Shown here: piece by piece, positions 7,826 to 18,825 of the stretch
Position numbering within the stretch: the first letter of the stretch is position 1
Layout: the number at the start of each line of letters is the position of its first letter
Source of the DNA: a virus
Length of the DNA stretch: 24,278 nucleotides
Virus record (IMG/VR): IMGVR_UViG_3300028844_008239
Location: 1-24,278 of that record
Reading direction: 5' to 3' (one strand)
Translations under genes and position numbers: made by a program
Notes under the pieces: model-generated
What the model was told of the DNA's origin: nothing
Databases searched by the model: none
Seen by the model: only the letters and a program-made list of their open reading frames with translations

Positions 7826-8000
7826 CTCTTATAACCGGTCGTTTACAGTAATCTAATTCACCTGCTGTAATCTTGCAAGGAATAAATTTAGCATTGTTTA
7901 TAACTTTTCTAAGTTCTTTGTCTAACATAGTTCCATCGTTTAGTAGTTTGTTACTGTAAGGTACTTCTACTGTGATAGTTGCTCGTATTGTTTTAGCCAT
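7809..8000 (-). CDS. Small hypothetical protein, 63 aa
   Basis: A 63-aa protein with an amphipathic beta start (ATITVEVPY), then a charged helix and an I-T-A-G-E-L-D-Y-C segment. It overlaps the ferritin-like gene by 1 bp (TAATG) and the cytidylyltransferase by 17 bp, so it is embedded in the coupled operon. No function recognised. Confidence 0.6.
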   Translation of the reverse strand: MAKTIRATITVEVPYSNKLLNDGTMLDKELRKVINNAKFIPCKITAGELDYCKRPVIRDETTL

Positions 8001-8440
8001 TATGAATAATCTTGTAGCATTTTCCTAATTTCTAATGCGTGTTGTTCTTCCATACCAATCTGTCCTCTGGCATATTCTTCTAACATAATACTTGCATCAG
8101 CAACTTCCATTAGTAGTTCTTTGTATGTCTCTACTGCTTTCATTTCGTGTTCTAAACTCTCAGTAAGAATTTGTTCAACACTATGATTGTGATTTTCTTC
8201 AATAGCAGATATCTTTTGACTTGGATGACCGCCAAAGCCTGTGATGTATTCACCTGCTTGTAAGGCGTGTGCTAAACTTTCTGTTGCCTGTTCCTGTAAA
8301 AATTGTACAATTGGTATTCTGTTAGGTCCTGTTACCATTAAAGAACTGTGTGCATATCTCACAACACCAGCCATTTCTAATTCCACTATCTCATTTAGTA
8401 TATCGCATACTTTCGATTCGTTTAGTGTCTTCAATTCCAT
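8000..8440 (-). CDS. Ferritin-like diiron protein (bacterioferritin/Dps type), 146 aa
   Basis: A 146-aa four-helix-bundle protein with diiron ligands in the expected order: E22 and Y29 in helix A (ELEMAGVVRYAHSS), E54/H58 in helix B (TESLAHA), E94 or E97 in helix C, E131-x2-H134 in helix D (GMEEQHA). The loop G-F-G-G-H-P-S is also typical of bacterioferritin-like proteins. In helix B the acid-to-His spacing is E-x3-H, one residue longer than the ExxH of classical bacterioferritin, so the site may differ. Likely role is iron storage or oxidation or peroxide protection in the infected cell. It is coupled by 1-bp overlaps to both neighbours. Confidence 0.8.
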   Translation of the reverse strand: MELKTLNESKVCDILNEIVELEMAGVVRYAHSSLMVTGPNRIPIVQFLQEQATESLAHALQAGEYITGFGGHPSQKISAIEENHNHSVEQILTESLEHEMKAVETYKELLMEVADASIMLEEYARGQIGMEEQHALEIRKMLQDYS

Positions 8441-9219
8441 TATTCTCCGTCGTAATATTCAAGACGCTCAATGTCGTCTTCTGTTGTTTCTTCACCATAT
8501 TGTATTTCTATAATATGACATGATTGATCACTTTCGTTTACTATCTGATGCCAGTCACCTTTTTTAATATGGATAACTTCATCTGTTTTAAGAGTTGTAA
8601 TTATAAAATCTTGTGGATTGTCTGTGTCCATTCCATGTTTAATACTACATTCGCCTTTACTCACAAACCACATTTCACTACGTTTAAAGTGTCTTTGGTA
8701 ACTGATACCTTTACCTGGTTCTATTACTAACTCTTTAACTTTTACTGCTGAGTCTTGAAACAAGTCTGAAAACTCGCCCCACACTCTGCGTTCTGTTGGG
8801 TACTTCCATTCTTTTAATATCCAACTACTGCTGTTGGCTTTATTATCACCACCTACAGCAAATTCAAACTCGTAACCTTCGACATCCATTTCAGGTATGT
8901 TGTCCTTTCCTCTGTCACCGCCATTGCAAAAAACATATTCATGTTGATGACCAAATGCATTTCTAACTTGAATGAGACCGTGTGTTACACTACCATCACT
9001 GTCATCAACAGCATACACATTGTCTACCATGTCCATGCGTTGAATTATAGTTGATCTTTCTTCGAAAGGCATAAAAGGTCTACCTTTCTTTTTTGTGAGC
9101 CATTCGTCACTGTTTACCAGTACAACAAGTTTGTCACCATATGCTCTTGCACTTTCTAATAGATTTATATGACCAGAGTGCAGTGGATCGAAACCTCCAC
9201 TAACAACAACTATTTTCAT
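8440..9219 (-). CDS. Nucleotidyltransferase-cupin fusion (RfaE2-like + mannose-6-P isomerase type II-like), 259 aa
   Basis: Two domains. Residues 1-138 are a cytidylyl/adenylyltransferase fold with GGFDPLHSGH (H14-S-G-H17), a P-F-E-E-R loop and a SSSWILKEW end like ISSTxLR. Residues 143-250 are a cupin close to the type II phosphomannose isomerase C-terminus: R-V-W-G-E-F, then S-Y-Q175-R-H177 and E182-M-W-F-V, a later G-D-W-H-Q, and the tail Y-G-E-E-T-T-E-D-D-I-E-R-L-E. The metal set Q-x-H-x4-E...H is intact. It probably makes an activated sugar or polyol and isomerises or binds a sugar. It overlaps bS21 and the ferritin-like gene by 1 bp each. Confidence 0.82.
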   Translation of the reverse strand: MKIVVVSGGFDPLHSGHINLLESARAYGDKLVVLVNSDEWLTKKKGRPFMPFEERSTIIQRMDMVDNVYAVDDSDGSVTHGLIQVRNAFGHQHEYVFCNGGDRGKDNIPEMDVEGYEFEFAVGGDNKANSSSWILKEWKYPTERRVWGEFSDLFQDSAVKVKELVIEPGKGISYQRHFKRSEMWFVSKGECSIKHGMDTDNPQDFIITTLKTDEVIHIKKGDWHQIVNESDQSCHIIEIQYGEETTEDDIERLEYYDGE

Positions 9220-9638
9220 TATGCTACACCGCGTGAGCGAAGCCTTCTTTGTATAGCCTCTTTGTGTTGAGCATGTTTTCTAGTTTTTCTTTTATCCTTC
9301 ATCCACTTAGTACCAGTTGGCTGATACATGTGAAAGTCTCCACGTTGCTCTGCATCTCTAACGTATTTGTTCCAACGTTTTTTTGCTTGGTCCTTCATAC
9401 GTTTCTTTTTAACAGACGGTTTTTCATAATATTGCTGTTTAGCAATTTCTTTTTGGAAATCAGATTTTTCTAATCTCTTCTTGAGAATTCTAATGGCTTT
9501 GTTTACATCACCATTTCGAACTTCAATACTGGCATCAAATTCTTTTTCTTTAGGTTTAGTTTTATCGAACTTTTTCTTAAAGTCTCTATTGTAACCCTTA
9601 GTAATTTGCTTACCTTGTTGTTTAAAATTTGTACTCAA
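9219..9638 (-). CDS. rpsU: Phage-encoded ribosomal protein bS21 with extensions, 139 aa
   Basis: Residues about 38-92 align by eye with bacterial S21. IEVRNGDVNKAIRILKKR matches the VRENE-ALRRFKR region, and EIAKQQYYEKPS followed by K-K-K-R-M-K matches the hallmark REFYEKPT-ERKRAK. It is flanked by a basic N-terminal extension (1-36) and a C-terminal extension (95-139, ending RRLRSRGVA), making it about twice the usual 70 aa. Phage bS21 is known in SAR11 myoviruses. It is expected to enter the 30S subunit near the anti-Shine-Dalgarno helix and favour phage mRNAs. It starts 4 bp past the ClpX stop and overlaps the next gene by 1 bp. Confidence 0.87.
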   Translation of the reverse strand: MSTNFKQQGKQITKGYNRDFKKKFDKTKPKEKEFDASIEVRNGDVNKAIRILKKRLEKSDFQKEIAKQQYYEKPSVKKKRMKDQAKKRWNKYVRDAEQRGDFHMYQPTGTKWMKDKRKTRKHAQHKEAIQRRLRSRGVA

Positions 9639-9641
9639 TGT

Positions 9642-10892
9642 TTACCTCATTTGTTTAAGTTTATAGTTTGTGTCTACTTCACTAATACCAGTATTATACG
9701 ATAAAACTGGATAAGAGTCAAGATCTTTTGGATATTTATTAAAACTTATTTTATCTACACCACTTTGTTTAAGTTTTGGTGCCCTAAACATAATGTTATG
9801 TAAACTAGATTCTATAATGCTTTTCAACCCTCTAGCACCTACTTTTCTATCAATAGCCAATTGTGCTACATCCTTTAAGTATTGCTTTGAGAAGTCTACA
9901 TCTATATCATCAAATTCTAATAATTTTTGCATTTGTTTAAGTACACTACCTTTTGAGTTTTCTAATACTTCTACCATTTGATCTTCAGTTAAACCTCTGA
10001 GATGTATTAAGTTTGGTAGTCTACCTACAAATTCTGGAATCAAACCAAATTCAATTAAGTCTCTATGTTCTACATATTCTAACCATGAATCTGATTGAAA
10101 TTTTTCGCCAATTGCTTTATTAAATCCTATTGACGTTTTGTTCAGTCTCTTTTTAACAACTTGGTCCAAACCAACAAATGAACCACTTACTACAAATAAT
10201 ACATTTTGTGTATTAAATTCTATAAATTCATCCATACGTTTAGAACCATTAGTTGAAACTTTTATTGTAGTGCCTTCAACAAGTCTTAGTAATGCTTGTT
10301 GTACACCTTCTCCACTAATATCTTTTGTACTGGTATTTGATTCACTGCTTCTAGTCTTTTTATCAATCTCATCAATAAAGACAATGCCTCTTTCTGCTAA
10401 TTCTACATTCCAATCGCAAGTATTAAGTAACCTTTCTATAACACTTTCTACATCTTCACCTACATAACCTGCTTCAGTAAGTGTTGTTGCATCTGCTATA
10501 GCAAATGGTACACTTAGTTTCTTAGCAAGTGTTTGTGCTAATAATGTTTTACCTGAACCAGTAGGGCCTACCACAACACAATTACTTTTTTCTATTTCAT
10601 TTTGTGTGTCAAATATGATTCTTTTGTAATGATTGTAGGCACTGACACTTAAGACTTCTTTTGCATAGTCTTGGCCAATGACATAGTCATCTAAAAAATC
10701 TTTTATTTCTTGGGGTTCTGGAATGTTTTCCAAGTCGAGGTCATCAACTTCTACATCATTTATGATCTTATAACTGATATTGATACACTCGTTACAAATG
10801 TAACTAGTTGGTCCTGCTATAAGTTTTTTTACTTCGTTTCGCTTTTTACCACAAAAACTACATTCAAGATTATTATCTTTTTTGTCAGACAT
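9642..10892 (-). CDS. clpX: ATP-dependent unfoldase ClpX, 416 aa
   Basis: Full length for ClpX. It has an N-terminal zinc-binding domain (C11, C14, C33, C36), Walker A GPTGSGKT (109-116), GYVG pore loop (143-146), Walker B VFIDEID (171-177), SGEGVQQ (193-199), Arg-finger region PEFVGRLP (286-293) and sensor 2 GARGLK (352-357). The ClpP-docking IGF tripeptide is present at 255-257, so it should be able to pair with host ClpP; no clpP is in the window. The position of the E. coli RKH loop, which selects substrates, reads K-R-M (218-220), suggesting altered recognition. Its ATG overlaps the previous stop by 1 bp. It likely redirects host proteolysis or acts as a remodeller in phage assembly. Confidence 0.96.
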   Translation of the reverse strand: MSDKKDNNLECSFCGKKRNEVKKLIAGPTSYICNECINISYKIINDVEVDDLDLENIPEPQEIKDFLDDYVIGQDYAKEVLSVSAYNHYKRIIFDTQNEIEKSNCVVVGPTGSGKTLLAQTLAKKLSVPFAIADATTLTEAGYVGEDVESVIERLLNTCDWNVELAERGIVFIDEIDKKTRSSESNTSTKDISGEGVQQALLRLVEGTTIKVSTNGSKRMDEFIEFNTQNVLFVVSGSFVGLDQVVKKRLNKTSIGFNKAIGEKFQSDSWLEYVEHRDLIEFGLIPEFVGRLPNLIHLRGLTEDQMVEVLENSKGSVLKQMQKLLEFDDIDVDFSKQYLKDVAQLAIDRKVGARGLKSIIESSLHNIMFRAPKLKQSGVDKISFNKYPKDLDSYPVLSYNTGISEVDTNYKLKQMR

Positions 10893-11599
10893 TACTTTTT
10901 AAAATACCTCGGTTCAGTGTCATCATTATCTTCATCCTTAGTTGGTAATGGTACTGCCCAAAAGCCCAACTGTTTATTTAATTCTTCTTCGCTGTATTTT
11001 TGCAAAAGTTCGAATATTTCTTTTGCACTCAGGCCTTCTTTGTTAAGTTCACTGTTTGCAATAAATTGCGCCGAACGTCTTAAATCTTTTGAAGATTCTT
11101 TTTCTACAACTTCTGGTTTTGTCTGTAGTTTATTTATAAGTTCTTGGTTGTGTGCTTTTAATTTTGCGATCTGATCTCTGTATAATTGCTCTTGGTGGTT
11201 TGCCATAGGCATGACAACTTCTCTAACATTTTTGCTAGACTCTACTTCAACCTCAACAATCTTTTCTACTTCAACAATCTTCTCGACTATTCTTTCGGGT
11301 CCTGGGACTTCGACTTCCACGATTCGTTCCACGATTCGCTCTGGTCCTGGGACCTCAATAATACGCTCGGGTCCTGGGACTTCGACTTCGCGAGTGACCA
11401 CAACCTCCTTTGGGACCTCGACCTTGCGTTCAACTTCGACAATTTTTTCGACCTCAACTTCGATCTCCTTTTCAACAATTACTTCTTTAGGCTTTTTATC
11501 TAGTTGATCTAAGGCATCATTCAGAGATGATAATGTTTTACCATATCTGATCCAAAGATCATCTAGAGCTTCTTGAATTTTATTTTCTTTTTGAGTCAT
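10892..11599 (-). CDS. VPGPER-repeat protein, 235 aa
   Basis: Residues 40-120 are a Val/Glu/Pro low-complexity segment. It has VEKIVEVE-type heptads and three VEVPGPERI-like units at about 72-80, 82-90 and 95-104. The N-terminus is a short helix. The C-terminus (130-235) is a charged helical region with a folded-looking end, L-S-A-K-E-I-F-E-L-L-Q-K-Y-S and G-F-W-A-V-P-L-P. No TM segment or signal. The regular E-V-P-x pattern resembles extended rod linkers such as that of TonB. It overlaps the membrane coiled-coil gene by 20 bp and clpX by 1 bp. The C-terminus of that neighbour has a related V-V-I-E-K-I-V-E-K stretch, so the two may interact. Function unknown. Confidence 0.78.
   Translation of the reverse strand: MTQKENKIQEALDDLWIRYGKTLSSLNDALDQLDKKPKEVIVEKEIEVEVEKIVEVERKVEVPKEVVVTREVEVPGPERIIEVPGPERIVERIVEVEVPGPERIVEKIVEVEKIVEVEVESSKNVREVVMPMANHQEQLYRDQIAKLKAHNQELINKLQTKPEVVEKESSKDLRRSAQFIANSELNKEGLSAKEIFELLQKYSEEELNKQLGFWAVPLPTKDEDNDDTEPRYFKK
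11240..11482 (-). repeat. In-frame coding repeat (VPGPER / VEKIVEVE units)
   Basis: Near-identical DNA copies of GGTCCTGGGAC[CT]TC on the plus strand occur around 11299, 11343 and 11371, interspersed with short TTCGAC/TTCAAC units. The block is visibly richer in G+C than flanking sequence. Copies stay in frame, so the array can expand or contract without breaking the gene. Confidence 0.8.
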
Positions 11600-13052
11600 C
11601 GTTATCTAGTCTTTTTGATATTTTCTTTTCTAAATCAAGAATCTCTTTTGGAGGTTTGATATTAAGTTTAGGCGACTTTTCTACTATCTTTTCTATAACG
11701 ACTTTCTCTGGTTTTTGTTTTTGTAATTGTTTAACAAGGCCTTCGAGCTCATCTATTTTTTTATTATTAGCCGCGGCACTTTCTGCCATTGCAACTGCGG
11801 CATCTTCTACTGCACTCGGAACATCTTCTAAGTCTGGCATATTATCACCATACTGTGCTCTTGCTTGTTCTTCGAAGTCACTGTCATGCCAATCATCATT
11901 TAGATCAATTGAAGTTCCTTCGTCTTTGTCTTCTGGCATATCAGGTCCTGTTTTTTCAAGGTTTATGCCATAACGTAATAAAGTTTGGTTGGCCGCAATC
12001 ACTAGCATAACTGCTAATGGGTCAAACACGAATACCAACATAAGTATGAATACTTGTACTGCTTTGTCGAGTAGCTCTGATGAGTCACCACCAAATAATA
12101 ATTGTGCAACATATTTTATAGGTCCTACCTCTTTTTCTAAGTTTCTAACTTCTTGTTCTGCTTCAAACTTTTCGTCTTTAAGTGTTGCTATAACATTGTA
12201 TATTTCATCAATTTCTGTGTTGTATTCTTCGATTTTTAATAAGTTGTCGTCTTGTGATTGAGTACTCGAATTCCTCAATCTATTTATTTCTGCATTTGCA
12301 TCATCAATAGTTTTTTGTGTTTGAGCCCTATATCTATCAATGTTATCTTGTTGTGATTTTATATCATCTCTGATTTGATCACGTTGTGGTTTTTGTTGAT
12401 CAAACAATGTATTTGCTTGAGCAACATAGTCTATGGTTTCTGTTTCAGCACGTCTAAATGTTCCTCCTTCTTCAGTGGTAATAACTTCTACACCTTTTTC
12501 TCTAAGGTCATTTACTGCTTTGTCTAGTACTGCTAATTGATTTCTTAAACTAGTAATTTGTCCTTGTGCATAATCTATATCGCCTTGTACTCTTTCCCAT
12601 GCACCATCTCTGATAGTTTCTTGTTGTTTAATACTTTCACTTACGTCAACACTTCCGCCAACACCTAGTATTCTATCTTCTAATATATCTATTTTGTTTT
12701 CTTGTCTGGCTATTTGGCCATCTATACGATCTACTGTAGCAAAGGCATCTCCTGCCACACCTGCTTGATCCAAATGTGCTTTACTTAGATAACCAAATAT
12801 ACCCATACTTGTAATCAGCATGAGTATAAGGACTGCTAAACTTAGATAGGTTTTTAAGGCCAGAGTTGTTTCGTTCCAATACCTATAAAGCCAACTTGCT
12901 GTAAGTAATTTACCTACTTCAAGTGTTCCAGCCATTATAGCAATTGGTAGAGCCGCCGCACTGAATATTGCCATTAAACCAGCAATACTAAACCAAGCCG
13001 CAACACCGGCTATGGCTAGGGCAGTAATTAAAGTTAAGATACCAAACCACAT
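11580..13052 (-). CDS. Membrane-anchored long coiled-coil protein, 490 aa
   Basis: The start is placed at 13052 (MWFGILTL). Codons further upstream run into the divergent promoter region, and a late promoter ends 8 nt before this ATG. Hydrophobic segments lie at about 3-45 (two helices) and 68-92. A roughly 230-residue coiled-coil/charged region (about 100-330) follows, then another hydrophobic stretch (about 340-375, FILMLVFVFDPLAVMLVIAA) and an acidic, Pro/Lys-rich cytoplasmic tail. This architecture recalls a large hypothetical membrane protein common in marine T4-like phages. It is the first gene of the operon that includes clpX and bS21. A periplasm-spanning or inner-membrane scaffold is possible. 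Function unknown. Confidence 0.8.
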   Translation of the reverse strand: MWFGILTLITALAIAGVAAWFSIAGLMAIFSAAALPIAIMAGTLEVGKLLTASWLYRYWNETTLALKTYLSLAVLILMLITSMGIFGYLSKAHLDQAGVAGDAFATVDRIDGQIARQENKIDILEDRILGVGGSVDVSESIKQQETIRDGAWERVQGDIDYAQGQITSLRNQLAVLDKAVNDLREKGVEVITTEEGGTFRRAETETIDYVAQANTLFDQQKPQRDQIRDDIKSQQDNIDRYRAQTQKTIDDANAEINRLRNSSTQSQDDNLLKIEEYNTEIDEIYNVIATLKDEKFEAEQEVRNLEKEVGPIKYVAQLLFGGDSSELLDKAVQVFILMLVFVFDPLAVMLVIAANQTLLRYGINLEKTGPDMPEDKDEGTSIDLNDDWHDSDFEEQARAQYGDNMPDLEDVPSAVEDAAVAMAESAAANNKKIDELEGLVKQLQKQKPEKVVIEKIVEKSPKLNIKPPKEILDLEKKISKRLDNDDSKRK

Positions 13053-13060
13053 AGTAAATA

Positions 13061-13068
13061 TATTTATC
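13061..13068 (-). promoter_or_regulatory. Late promoter of the clpX/bS21 operon (GATAAATA)
   Basis: GATAAATA on the minus strand, 8 nt before the ATG at 13052, with no Shine-Dalgarno between. It lies back-to-back with the plus-strand TATAAATA at 13073-13080. Confidence 0.6.
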
Positions 13069-13072
13069 TTAT

Positions 13073-13080
13073 TATAAATA
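13073..13080 (+). promoter_or_regulatory. Late promoter, exact T4 consensus TATAAATA
   Basis: TATAAATA ends 5 nt before the ATG at 13086. The predicted start site is at the start codon, so the mRNA should be leaderless. Confidence 0.62.
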
Positions 13081-13085
13081 CATAT

Positions 13086-13616
13086 ATGATACTTAATTGG
13101 ATACATAACAGAGAAACCAAAGAATTAAAGTGTGTTATACACGATAACCTATATTACACAACGTATAATGGTGGTGGCACTATAACAAAATATCTTGATA
13201 GCAATGAATCTGTTATCACAGATTGGGAAGATGAAAAATATTGGCTTAGTGCAAACTATCCTGAATTAGGAGTTTACGAACCATTTGAGTTACCTGATGA
13301 TCAACAAGAACAATGGCTGATTGATAATAATTGGAATGAAGCATTTCCTTCATTTGGTTTATGTCCAGATGGCCATTACTTAGATAGATTACAACGTTTA
13401 GCGGAAGTACAAGAACTCAAAGGATACTACGATTTTATATACGAGCCAGAAAATAAATTAAATATTATAAAGAAAAATGGTGAGTATTTTAAAAGAGAAT
13501 GGTGTGAAGAAAATAACAGTTTTTACAATTTACAACCTTGTTGTGTATTCCCAGATAATCCTGGTCTAACTCCCTTAACTAAAGAACAGGCAGAAAGTTA
13601 TAAAAGTAGAGGGTAG
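13086..13616 (+). CDS. Hypothetical protein, 176 aa
   Basis: A 176-aa soluble acidic protein, isolated on the plus strand between minus-strand operons. It is aromatic-rich (W-L-S-A-N-Y-P-E-L-G, WLIDNNWNEAFPSFG) with two Cys pairs (C-P-D-G-H near 93 and Q-P-C-C near 151). No recognised domain. It is preceded by an exact late promoter at leaderless distance and followed by a hairpin overlapping its stop codon. The late promoter suggests a structural or packaging-stage role, which is inference. Confidence 0.68.
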   Translation: MILNWIHNRETKELKCVIHDNLYYTTYNGGGTITKYLDSNESVITDWEDEKYWLSANYPELGVYEPFELPDDQQEQWLIDNNWNEAFPSFGLCPDGHYLDRLQRLAEVQELKGYYDFIYEPENKLNIIKKNGEYFKREWCEENNSFYNLQPCCVFPDNPGLTPLTKEQAESYKSRG

Positions 13617-15740: not shown

Positions 15741-16493
15741 TTAGTAAATTTGGTAACCTTGGGTAGAAAATATATTAAAATTTTCCTTACACCAATCATT
15801 CATTTCGTCTACATTTTTTAATCTTAGCATTTTATGATGTGCTGTAAGTATATCTTCTCCTCGAATATTTACTTTTTGTATTTTGTTTGCATAGTCATAA
15901 TGTTCTAAAATAGTAGGGTGTAATTCTGGTGCACCTCTATGCGTGTAAAGTGGTTTTCTGCTACCCCATTGACCTTCTATGCTAACAAGACTTTCCATCA
16001 TAGTAGGGTAATCAAATTTTATAATTTCTGACACATATTGCAAATGATCTAATTGTTGTTGATTTAAATTTTGATATTCAGCAAACGTTGTATCAAAAAT
16101 ATCATGCATTGCTGTGAACCAATAACACAATTCATTTGCTTCTAGGTATTCCTTTAAGAAGATAATATCATTTAAACTTTGCATCAGCATCCAGTCTCGA
16201 GGAACACCTGGATTTGAGTATTGAGAACCTTGGCATACCCAAGTAGTTTCTCCGTTATTGGTACCAACTTTATCATGTCTAAATAAGGAAGGTAACATGA
16301 TAATAATTTTGTCTAGTTCAGTAAAATTATATTTGCGATTTGCATTAGCAACTTTATGTAGTATCTGAGTTATTCCGCCGCCTTTTTGTCCAAAGTTATA
16401 ACCATCATTTTTATAACAAATCATGTCTGCCCAAGTAGGCCAATACCATTCGGTAAAACTACAACCAAAAGTAAAAATTCTACTATTACTCAT
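15741..16493 (-). CDS. SGNH-hydrolase-like protein, 250 aa
   Basis: The start is placed at 16493 ([10 protein letters not shown]), which overlaps the ferredoxin stop by 8 bp; a longer frame would read back into the ferredoxin. Residues 10-14 are G-C-S-F-T, the block I position of SGNH hydrolases (GDS with Cys in place of Asp), followed by W-A-D-M-I and F-G-Q-K-G-G-G (block II). E-L-H-P-T near the C-terminus sits at the block V position with E-x-H in place of D-x-x-H. Such proteins in marine phages often carry GCSFT. Likely acts on an ester, such as deacetylating a polysaccharide. Substrate unknown. Confidence 0.72.
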
Positions 16494-16845
16494 CGGTAAT
16501 ATCTTTAAATGGGATTCTTGATACTTTTTCAAATGCTTCGTTGGTATCATAGTTGATATCTTCGTGTCCGGGCATAGGATCTTTCACTTTGGTAATAACA
16601 GGCCATTTTTCTTCTTGACTCATTTTTTTATTGAATTCTAGCCAATGATGATCTTCAGGCTTTAGTTTTCTATCACTCACAATAGCATCAACTGGGCATT
16701 CTGGTTCACAAATTGCACAATCAATACATATATCAGGATCAATGACTAATGTGTTTTCTCCTTCAAAAAAACAATCAACAGGGCAAACTTTAACACATGC
16801 GGTGTGTTTACAATCTACACATTCACCTTTTACAACATAAGTCAT
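16486..16845 (-). CDS. fdxA: 7Fe ferredoxin (FdxA type), 119 aa
   Basis: A 119-aa protein starting MTYVV. Cysteines at 9, 17, 21 and 25 and at 40, 43, 46 and 50 give the 3Fe-4S plus 4Fe-4S pattern of FdI/FdxA. C12 is extra. The conserved CPVDCFFEG and [16 protein letters not shown] segments and the C-terminal [10 protein letters not shown] extension are as in proteobacterial FdxA. It carries electrons to an unknown reductase or oxygenase in the cytoplasm. Cyanophages carry plant-type 2Fe ferredoxin; this bacterial 7Fe type points to a non-photosynthetic host. It overlaps the SGNH gene by 8 bp, and an AAAGGAGATTAA ribosome-binding region precedes the ATG. Confidence 0.92.
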
Positions 16846-17027: not shown

Positions 17028-18080
17028 TTAAACTCCGGAGTTTACAGTTTGTTGGAATAAATTGTAGAGTTGTTCACTGGCTAAGTTCTTAGCCTTTGCT
17101 TCACATTGAATATCGAATTGATCTATAAAACTAAGTGCCCATAGGTTAGCATCCTTGTTGGGATAATAATCTGAATGTGCTCTTAGTTTTTGTTTCTTGT
17201 GACCCGCTTCAAGTAGTCCCACGATATCATGCATATCAGAGTGGGTATTGTCACCAGCAGGTAAATGCTCGTCACGACTGTAACTATAATGCATAGCAGG
17301 GCGAACTCCACGCCAACTGTCGATAACCGCTTTAACTCTGTCATCCTCGGGTTGTATGTACTCTTCATCTCTAATCCAGTGATGGTGTATATCTAATACA
17401 AGTGCCACGTGGTCTTTCAATTTAAGACTTTCGTCTAGACCCCAACACATCTCATCATTCTCAATAGTTATTGTATTTAGTGCTTCAGGTGATAATCGAG
17501 GCAAAGCCTTAATTATACCTTCTGCACCTTGTCGTCCACTAATGTGTACGTTTATTTTCATGTCTTGCCACTGCTGACCATAACCCATCCAACGTGCCAT
17601 GTTTACATGATACTCAAACTCGTCAATGCTACGTTCTACAACGTCTGACTTATCTGAAGCCAGCACACAAAATTGACCAGGATGGAAACTAATACGAACA
17701 TCACGTGACTTCGCAAGTTCTCCAATCTTGGCAAATCCGGCCTCGAGTACTCTAACGTTAGTTGGATCATCCCATAAGTAACGCCAATTAGGCTCAGTAG
17801 CCATAGGTATTTGATTACTTCCAAGTCTCACCATCCTTCTATTTTCAGGCAAAGTACTTACCCATTCAACGAGGTTGTATGCACTTTGCATATTATGTGT
17901 AACAACATCAAGTAACTTTTGTTCAGCAACAGACTTTTCTTGTCTGTTACACCAAGCGACAGTTGTGCCTTTTTCTGTAAAGTTTTGTTGAATCTCTTTA
18001 AGAATCTTTGGCTTCTGACTTTGATCAGGGTCCATGTACTTGCAACAAAAACCTATACGTTGTATACTATTATCAAACAT
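17028..18080 (-). CDS. uvsE: UV damage endonuclease UvsE/UVDE, 350 aa
   Basis: The start is placed at 18080 (MFDNSIQRIGF). An upstream ATG at 18128 would place a perfect promoter inside the coding sequence. The protein is a UVDE TIM barrel: RIGFCCKY (8-15), R-L-G-S-N near 86, SFHPGQF, INVHISGR, T-I-E-N-D-E, VLDIHHHW, MHYSYSRDEH and RAHSDYY provide the His/Asp/Glu metal ligands. Length is normal for bacterial members. It nicks DNA 5' to UV photoproducts, protecting phage DNA in surface water, a role T4 gives to DenV. The -10 lies 6 nt before the ATG, so the mRNA should be leaderless. Confidence 0.95.
   Translation of the reverse strand: MFDNSIQRIGFCCKYMDPDQSQKPKILKEIQQNFTEKGTTVAWCNRQEKSVAEQKLLDVVTHNMQSAYNLVEWVSTLPENRRMVRLGSNQIPMATEPNWRYLWDDPTNVRVLEAGFAKIGELAKSRDVRISFHPGQFCVLASDKSDVVERSIDEFEYHVNMARWMGYGQQWQDMKINVHISGRQGAEGIIKALPRLSPEALNTITIENDEMCWGLDESLKLKDHVALVLDIHHHWIRDEEYIQPEDDRVKAVIDSWRGVRPAMHYSYSRDEHLPAGDNTHSDMHDIVGLLEAGHKKQKLRAHSDYYPNKDANLWALSFIDQFDIQCEAKAKNLASEQLYNLFQQTVNSGV
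17029..17044. repeat. Perfect 16-bp palindrome at the UV endonuclease stop codon
   Basis: TAAACTCCGGAGTTTA reads the same on both strands and contains two bases of the TAA stop (17028-17030). It could be a protein-binding site or, as RNA, a stem after the gene. Confidence 0.6.
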
Positions 18081-18086
18081 GTCAGT

Positions 18087-18115
18087 ATTATATACTATTG
18101 ATACAGCAATGTCAA
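18087..18115 (-). promoter_or_regulatory. Perfect consensus promoter of uvsE, leaderless geometry
   Basis: Minus strand: TTGACA (18115-18110), 17-nt spacer, TATAAT (18092-18087), then ACTGAC and the ATG at 18080. Its -35 overlaps the plus-strand late promoter at 18114-18121. Confidence 0.85.
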
Positions 18116-18121
18116 TAAATA
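18114..18121 (+). promoter_or_regulatory. Late promoter of the second SGNH gene (AATAAATA)
   Basis: AATAAATA ends 5 nt before the ATG at 18127, leaving no Shine-Dalgarno. It shares two base pairs with the -35 of the divergent uvsE promoter. Confidence 0.5.
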
Positions 18122-18126
18122 ATTGC

Positions 18127-18825
18127 ATGAATTTAGAAAAAGTTGATGGTATTATTGCTTGTGGGGATAGTTATACATTAGGTCCTAGATATGGTGATGA
18201 TATACATCATGAGGATAGTTGGCCTAGCATTTTAGGTAAATCACTATCTAAGCCTGTTTCGAACGTTTCTAGAGGTGGTGCAAGTAATACTGAGATTTCA
18301 TTACAACCACTAAAAACTTTATCTAGTTTTAAGAATCCATTATTGATATTTGGATTTACTGTTGATATACGTTATCCGTTTTTCACTAGAGATGGCATTT
18401 TGCATAGTATGAATGGTTTAAGTGATGCAGACTTTGAACGTGAAGATTCTATAAGAAATAATAGAGTATCACTAGCAAAACAATTTATGCAACAATTTCT
18501 ACTTCCTGTAGGTGGACATACCGGAATGCAAAATTTGTTTGTGCAATCTGTAAAAACAGCAATGGCATATAAAAAACTAAATCCTAGTGCTCAAGTGATA
18601 TGGGGAAATATACATAGTCAAAAACCGACCAAACGTATCAAACCAAATAATAGATTAGTATCTGAGAGCATGTATTGTTTTAACAGCATTGCAAATAGTA
18701 AACCATTACAATCGTTGATACATCATAACACCGATGCATGGATTTCCCCAAAAGATAGCCATCCTAACAAACTAGGTTGTACCATAATTGCAGATAGCCT
18801 TAAGAGATACATTTCTCAATTTTAG
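18127..18825 (+). CDS. SGNH/GDSL-type hydrolase, 232 aa
   Basis: The start is placed at 18127 (MNLEKVDG), the first ATG beyond the divergent promoters. Block I is G13-D-S15-Y-T, block II is N-V-S-R-G-G-A-S-N-T-E, and the C-terminal catalytic pair is D210-S-H212-P-N. The nucleophile Ser, the Gly/Asn oxyanion residues and the Asp/His are all present, more canonical than the GCSFT protein at 15741-16493. Probably an esterase/deacetylase acting on a surface polysaccharide. It has a late promoter at leaderless distance, and is the first gene of the plus-strand late block. Confidence 0.8.
   Translation: MNLEKVDGIIACGDSYTLGPRYGDDIHHEDSWPSILGKSLSKPVSNVSRGGASNTEISLQPLKTLSSFKNPLLIFGFTVDIRYPFFTRDGILHSMNGLSDADFEREDSIRNNRVSLAKQFMQQFLLPVGGHTGMQNLFVQSVKTAMAYKKLNPSAQVIWGNIHSQKPTKRIKPNNRLVSESMYCFNSIANSKPLQSLIHHNTDAWISPKDSHPNKLGCTIIADSLKRYISQF

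Follow-up and report, generated by a model that had tools for sequence, protein, structure and literature searches.

Why would a phage encode the protein unfoldase ClpX and the ribosomal protein bS21 in adjacent genes, and might the two products serve one end during infection? The question is raised by a 24,278-base virus fragment from IMG/VR, hereafter the window (the whole stretch of DNA analysed), the source of which is a marine jumbo-type phage. A preliminary description had placed a complete clpX beside a bS21 gene at 9219-10892, and both the coordinates and the reading frames prove to be correct. The features that bear on the question are:

8000-8440, minus strand: ferritin-like protein, a neighbour conserved only within the window's wider clade
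8440-9219, minus strand: nucleotidyltransferase-cupin fusion, conserved only within the same wider clade and outside the general module
9219-9638, minus strand: bS21 (rpsU-like), 139 residues, TTG start, S21 core at residues 37-91
9636-9654, minus strand: clpX/bS21 junction, with a GAGG Shine-Dalgarno sequence in the last clpX codons (..ATGAGGTAAACATTG..), then TAA, then TTG
9642-10892, minus strand: clpX, a 416-residue AAA+ unfoldase, ATG start (10892), TAA stop
10892-11599, minus strand: GMEM tail ORF, the split-off C-terminal tail of GMEM, whose stop overlaps the clpX start
11580-13106, minus strand: GMEM, an uncharacterised membrane coiled-coil protein encoded upstream of clpX

The clpX product exceeds the cut-offs of two ClpX models, namely, the equivalog TIGR00382 (489.8 bits; cut-off 370.75) and NF003745 (506 bits; cut-off 359), and carries the N-terminal C4 zinc-binding domain (PF06689, 6e-17). 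The alignment to E. coli ClpX spans the full length of both proteins, and from it the zinc-binding domain, the Walker A and B motifs, the GYVG pore loop, the arginine finger, sensor 2 and the IGF loop could all be read off; the AlphaFold model is of low confidence (mean pLDDT 57). The ClpP-docking loop, which the preliminary description had reported as kept, is indeed present as SIGFN, with [IVM]GF across the clade, and on the strength of this tripeptide the protein is a predicted partner of ClpP that would bind and feed the protease. Domain order, motifs and docking loop are common to the window and E. coli proteins, whereas the RKH loop of the former is shortened and its gene adjoins bS21 rather than clpP; in contrast to bacterial ClpX, moreover, it belongs to a phage-specific branch of the ClpX tree.

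The bS21 product scores above the curated cut-offs of both PF01165 (2.8e-13, 49.8 bits; cut-off 27) and TIGR00030 (48.6; cut-off 28.95), in each case over residues 37-91 only. The flanking extensions had been described as long and basic, and so they are: at pH 7, the N-terminal 37 residues carry a net charge of +5.5 and the C-terminal 51 residues one of +10.0, the latter including a TGxKxxKxKRxxR motif that is conserved in the clade. In the AlphaFold model (mean pLDDT 65), the helices in the extension region are of low confidence. A gap of 3 nt separates the clpX stop codon from the bS21 start, and we infer that the two genes are translationally coupled; an overlap or short gap is retained in relatives. 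Both genes are under purifying selection, with dN of about 0.03-0.05 and dS of 0.28-0.43 between the window and L002, which puts dN/dS well below 1. Since the pair is retained in relatives, is under purifying selection and recurs far outside this lineage, its existence is not due to chance.

The clpX-bS21 pair is conserved in every IMG/VR relative of the first scans whose sequence covers both genes. As far as the fragments extend, the order in the relatives from the first two scans is GMEM, the tail ORF where separate, clpX, bS21, the nucleotidyltransferase-cupin fusion and the ferritin-like gene, with ClpX identities down to 54% and with clpX and bS21 either overlapping or separated by 1-3 nt. 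Two of the relatives, G004 (110 kb) and G006 (119 kb), encode a full-length ClpP with a conserved Ser-His-Asp triad, and G004 additionally encodes a ClpA-like protein, DnaJ and GroES. Three jumbo phages, Sinorhizobium phage Phosso, Vibrio phage 2.275.O and Agrobacterium phage Atu_ph07, have the DNA polymerases closest to that of G004, but the identity of 43-46% is too low for a host to be named. G004 also carries a near-complete SUF iron-sulfur set (L028 3545-8528 and L029 9693-11042) comprising SufB, a SufC-like ABC ATPase, a SufD-like protein, SufS, an FeS_assembly_P protein, SufE and an IscA/SufA-type protein, the gene for the last lying directly 3' of clpP; an AmtB-type ammonium transporter gene (PF00909, 7e-90) is found at L029 2349-3563 on the same phage contig.

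The pair had been described as part of a late operon, for which we find no support. The same-strand neighbours of clpX and bS21 are metabolic, membrane and cell-wall genes, with no structural gene recognised among them in the window; matches to the late promoter TATAAATA are at chance level there (4 against 3.9 expected), and sigma-70-like sites are rarer than in shuffled sequences. A search for tRNA and tmRNA genes in the window and in G004 found none. Elsewhere in the window, positions 16486-16845 encode a ferredoxin and 17028-18128 a UvdE-type UV endonuclease (PF03851, 1e-40), which is also present in relatives.

Two alignment-based IMG/VR scans with cassette-type queries, of which the best matches were listed, together with other fetched loci, yielded 114 viral clusters of ClpX when grouped at 90% identity, and in 109 of these the sequence continues for at least 700 nt downstream. 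Among the matches listed, bS21 and/or IF3 directly follows clpX in 97 of these 109, mostly with an overlap between clpX and the next gene: 63 clusters have clpX-bS21, 28 clpX-IF3-bS21 and 6 clpX-IF3, such that IF3 stands between clpX and bS21 in about one third of the cassettes, whereas 5 have clpP-clpX and 7 neither bS21 nor IF3. Bacterial clpX was followed by bS21 or IF3 in none of 69 clusters, 57 of which have clpP upstream. The difference has a Fisher p of 3e-37, without phylogenetic correction. The viral figure of 89% is not a population estimate, because the bacterial sample comprised the sequences closest to the query and the viral one came from the listed matches to cassette-type queries. 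In the ClpX tree, the bacterial group excludes the cassette proteins (99 SH-aLRT), and only 5 changes are needed to account for the cassette state; the gene order has therefore survived deep divergence. The four clpP-clpX loci from 'viral' contigs that the first tree includes nest within its bacterial group, and were set aside as recent acquisitions or bacterial sequence. The adjacency of clpX and rpsU that the preliminary description had proposed to look for in other phages thus recurs in IMG/VR clusters, as it does in cultured phages (see below), and the clpX-(IF3)-bS21 module is well supported as a fact of gene order.

The earlier idea of a unit coupling proteolysis to initiation survives in these counts and proves far more general than the window alone could reveal, although the unit extends beyond two genes to take in GMEM and IF3. 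Among the matches listed, a family profile detects GMEM no further than 1.2 kb upstream of clpX in 87/92 cassette loci (clpX-bS21, 58/60; clpX-IF3-bS21, 25/26; clpX-IF3, 4/6), as against 0/5 clpP-clpX loci. Hsp20 and ClpS are often encoded downstream, clustered at cassette loci. GMEM matches no Pfam or NCBIfam family; it comprises N-terminal transmembrane segments, a long coiled coil, a C-terminal transmembrane segment ('FDPLAVMLVIAAN') and a tail, and its true start is probably at 13052 (M19). In the window the gene is split into two ORFs (11580-13106 and 10892-11599) overlapping by 20 nt, which reflects either a gene fission or a frameshift site; in L014, L051, L141, L146 and L147, GMEM and tail are a single ORF. 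The window's tail ORF ends in the conserved GFWAVPLP, and the same GFWAxPLP motif occurs in the fused relatives. In L068, one of the members examined, a peptidoglycan-binding-like segment that scores below the Pfam cut-off lies within the coil; from this, the coil would face the periplasm and the tail the cytosol.

Seen from the partners, the association is looser. A scan started from IF3, for which a smaller alignment was used as the first lacked a sufficiently conserved stretch, found clpX directly upstream in 17/54 IF3 clusters; one other has clpX elsewhere in the locus and one is cut short. The scan started from GMEM found clpX downstream in 30 of the 43 evaluable clusters. Each of bS21, IF3 and GMEM can be found in phages that have no clpX beside it, and so does not need clpX; the dependence runs one way only, with clpX tied to its partners but not they to clpX. 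L401, L402, L405 and L417 lack clpX between GMEM and the downstream bS21 (or IF3-bS21) and Hsp20. There are also counter-examples on the ClpX side: the clpX genes of phage G, Lak and two other huge phages adjoin neither bS21 nor IF3. The ClpX of Prevotella phage Lak-A1 is 735 residues long (L358 2983-5190), with an insert, possibly an intein, splitting the AAA domain.

Cultured phages also carry the arrangement. A tblastn search of cultured phages with the window bS21 gave no match at 1e-3, and bS21 was located with the PA5oct protein instead. Adjacent clpX and bS21 are present in eleven PA5oct-group records and in SCTP-2, and clpX-IF3 in Phosso and Atu_ph07. The Pseudomonas phages PA5oct, MIJ3 and Paride share with the window the clpX-rpsU order (with a 14-nt overlap in PA5oct) and the loss of RKH, with Hsp20 and ClpS downstream, but their bS21 is of normal size (68 residues), PTPS is encoded upstream and there is no GMEM gene within 5 kb upstream. 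Paride (OR805295, position 42244) is a member of the PA5oct group, whose members have adjacent clpX and bS21. In Sinorhizobium phages AP-J-162 and Phosso and in Atu_ph07, clpX is again followed by a translation-initiation gene, although here it is IF3 that adjoins clpX, bS21 lies further downstream and the loop reads RKN instead of KR. That clpX lies beside IF3 was already remarked by the authors of the AP-J-162 work.

In Pelagibacter phage HTVC008M (L363 1633-4190), the bS21 gene is preceded by a gene annotated CobS and followed by Hsp20. CobS is an AAA+-type ATPase different from ClpX. Phage bS21 as such is known (PMC6375957, PMC9723584, PMC7162821, PMC7029224), and one such protein, that of HTVC008M, enters E. 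coli ribosomes and alters their activity (PMC6375957); for the window protein, incorporation into 30S subunits is a prediction. The bS21 proteins of HTVC008M and of the Bacteroidetes phages of Chen et al. 2022 (PMC9723584) share with that of the window the S21 core and a proposed substitution into host ribosomes, but their genes lie beside structural or other genes, whereas that of the window lies directly downstream of clpX and its product has long basic extensions. Chen et al. counted Clp protease families at most 10 genes from bS21 in 50/900 and 47/900 genomes, and their main text describes no clpX-bS21 unit. In the open-access literature, supplements aside, we came across neither the clpX-(IF3)-bS21 unit nor its association with GMEM; the parts are known, but so far as we could find the conserved module is undescribed.

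What the phage ClpX might degrade, and with which protease, can be approached through its RKH loop and the Clp partners of longer genomes. The loop had been described as having K-R-M in place of RKH; it is indeed altered, but GGRKHPQQEF of E. coli corresponds to GSKR--MDEF, a loop two residues shorter in which KR replaces RKH and His230 is gone. Thr199 in pore loop 2 is kept, so that some ssrA activity is possible, and Val202 is replaced by Ile. Among the matches listed, RKH is lost in 54/63 clpX-bS21 clusters and in 1/28 clpX-IF3-bS21 clusters, the remaining 27 having RKH or RKN intact, as against a loss in 1/71 bacterial clusters; however, the tree requires only 8 changes of state, and the events are therefore few and the cluster counts not independent. 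The ssrA degron is contacted by Arg228 and His230, and H230A strongly raises KM and cripples degradation (PMC7652416). Given these roles, loss of the loop suggests that the ClpX paired with bS21 has probably left ssrA traffic and turned to an altered set of non-ssrA substrates. As for the protease, no ClpP is encoded in the 24-kb window, itself a fragment, but the 31 long cassette records encode ClpX in 31, ClpS in 31, bS21 in 29, ClpP in 26 and IF3 in 16, each IF3 gene directly following clpX; the five in which no ClpP was seen may be incomplete. A phage ClpP with an intact triad, a ClpA-like protein and ClpS suggest that phage ClpX probably works first with phage ClpP, and with host ClpP only secondarily. 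Hence, of the proposed control of host proteolysis, a proteolysis gene in the unit stands, and the unit is better read as belonging to a Clp system of the phage's own.

A functional link between ClpX and translation initiation is likely, and the clpX and bS21 functions probably work together during infection. The explanation we favour, tentatively and at somewhat short of an even chance, is that the module biases initiation through phage bS21 while ClpX degrades opposing factors with phage ClpP as its main partner. The window pair is one version of a conserved large-phage module, GMEM-clpX-(IF3)-bS21, which in many cases continues with Hsp20 and ClpS. The phage bS21 would replace that of the host on 30S subunits, biasing initiation toward phage mRNAs, and the co-translated ClpX, docked mainly on phage ClpP through its IGF loop, would unfold and degrade opponents of the switch, be they defence proteins or factors of the host that act in initiation or associate with the ribosome. 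In the branch with bS21 alone, a ClpX that has lost its RKH loop would be freed from ssrA-tag traffic for other substrates, possibly delivered by the cytosolic tail of GMEM; RKH is mostly intact in the IF3 form, so a single substrate story may not fit all members. A stronger version, in which GMEM, ClpX(P), IF3 and bS21 form a physical machine converting ribosomes one by one to phage initiation, seems to us decidedly improbable: the cytosolic tail of GMEM, with its GFWAxPLP or SWLxEF end, would dock ClpX at the membrane, and ClpX would strip or degrade host initiation factors on the 30S subunit while co-translated phage IF3 and bS21 load.

Alternatively, the genes may share only timing and dose, with clpX, IF3, bS21, Hsp20 and ClpS acting as independent boosters and ClpX having no substrate linked to initiation. 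The clustering of Hsp20 and ClpS at the same loci, the occurrence of bS21, IF3 and GMEM without clpX, and the DnaJ, GroES and ClpA-like genes elsewhere in G004 are all consistent with this; the clpX-(IF3)-bS21 association is, however, tighter and older, the nucleotidyltransferase-cupin and ferritin-like genes being limited to one part of the tree, and we judge the boosters somewhat unlikely. It is distinctly unlikely that the phage and host ClpX proteins compete for host ClpP, with the phage one so redirecting the host protease: an IGF-type tripeptide is kept in the window and most relatives, and ClpP is absent from the window and unseen in 5/31 long (possibly incomplete) records, but it is encoded by the two longest close relatives and by 26/31 of the long records. 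The intact RKH or RKN of 27/28 clpX-IF3-bS21 clusters among the matches listed would suit a role in translation quality control, with phage ClpXP removing ssrA-tagged fragments from hijacked ribosomes, whereas the loss of RKH from the window and from 54/63 clpX-bS21 clusters makes this highly improbable; human ClpX, with Leu at the T199 and H230 positions, does not degrade ssrA substrates (PMC7652416), although the window protein keeps T199. Finally, ClpX has been proposed to act in virion assembly or DNA replication in jumbo phages (PMC7824862) and Atu_ph07 (PMC6102473), and in Phosso, Atu_ph07 and SCTP-2 clpX does have topoisomerase genes nearby; a topoisomerase match is found in just 6/114 viral loci among the matches listed, however, the constant neighbours being translation-initiation genes, and we give this role only a very slight chance.

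Until now, phage ClpX and phage bS21 have been seen as separate curiosities, with ClpX guessed to serve assembly or replication. Conservation of the clpX-(IF3)-bS21 order among large phages that are themselves divergent, and its lack at the bacterial loci examined, argue that phage protease and ribosome parts belong to one process, and the module may, as the preliminary description supposed, reprogramme which proteins are made and kept. It opens a testable route to the long-open question of how host ribosomal proteins are displaced by those of a phage, and cultured carriers for such work exist in PA5oct, Paride, SCTP-2 and Phosso. Dormant cells of P. aeruginosa support the replication of Paride (PMC10761892), with which the module may help.
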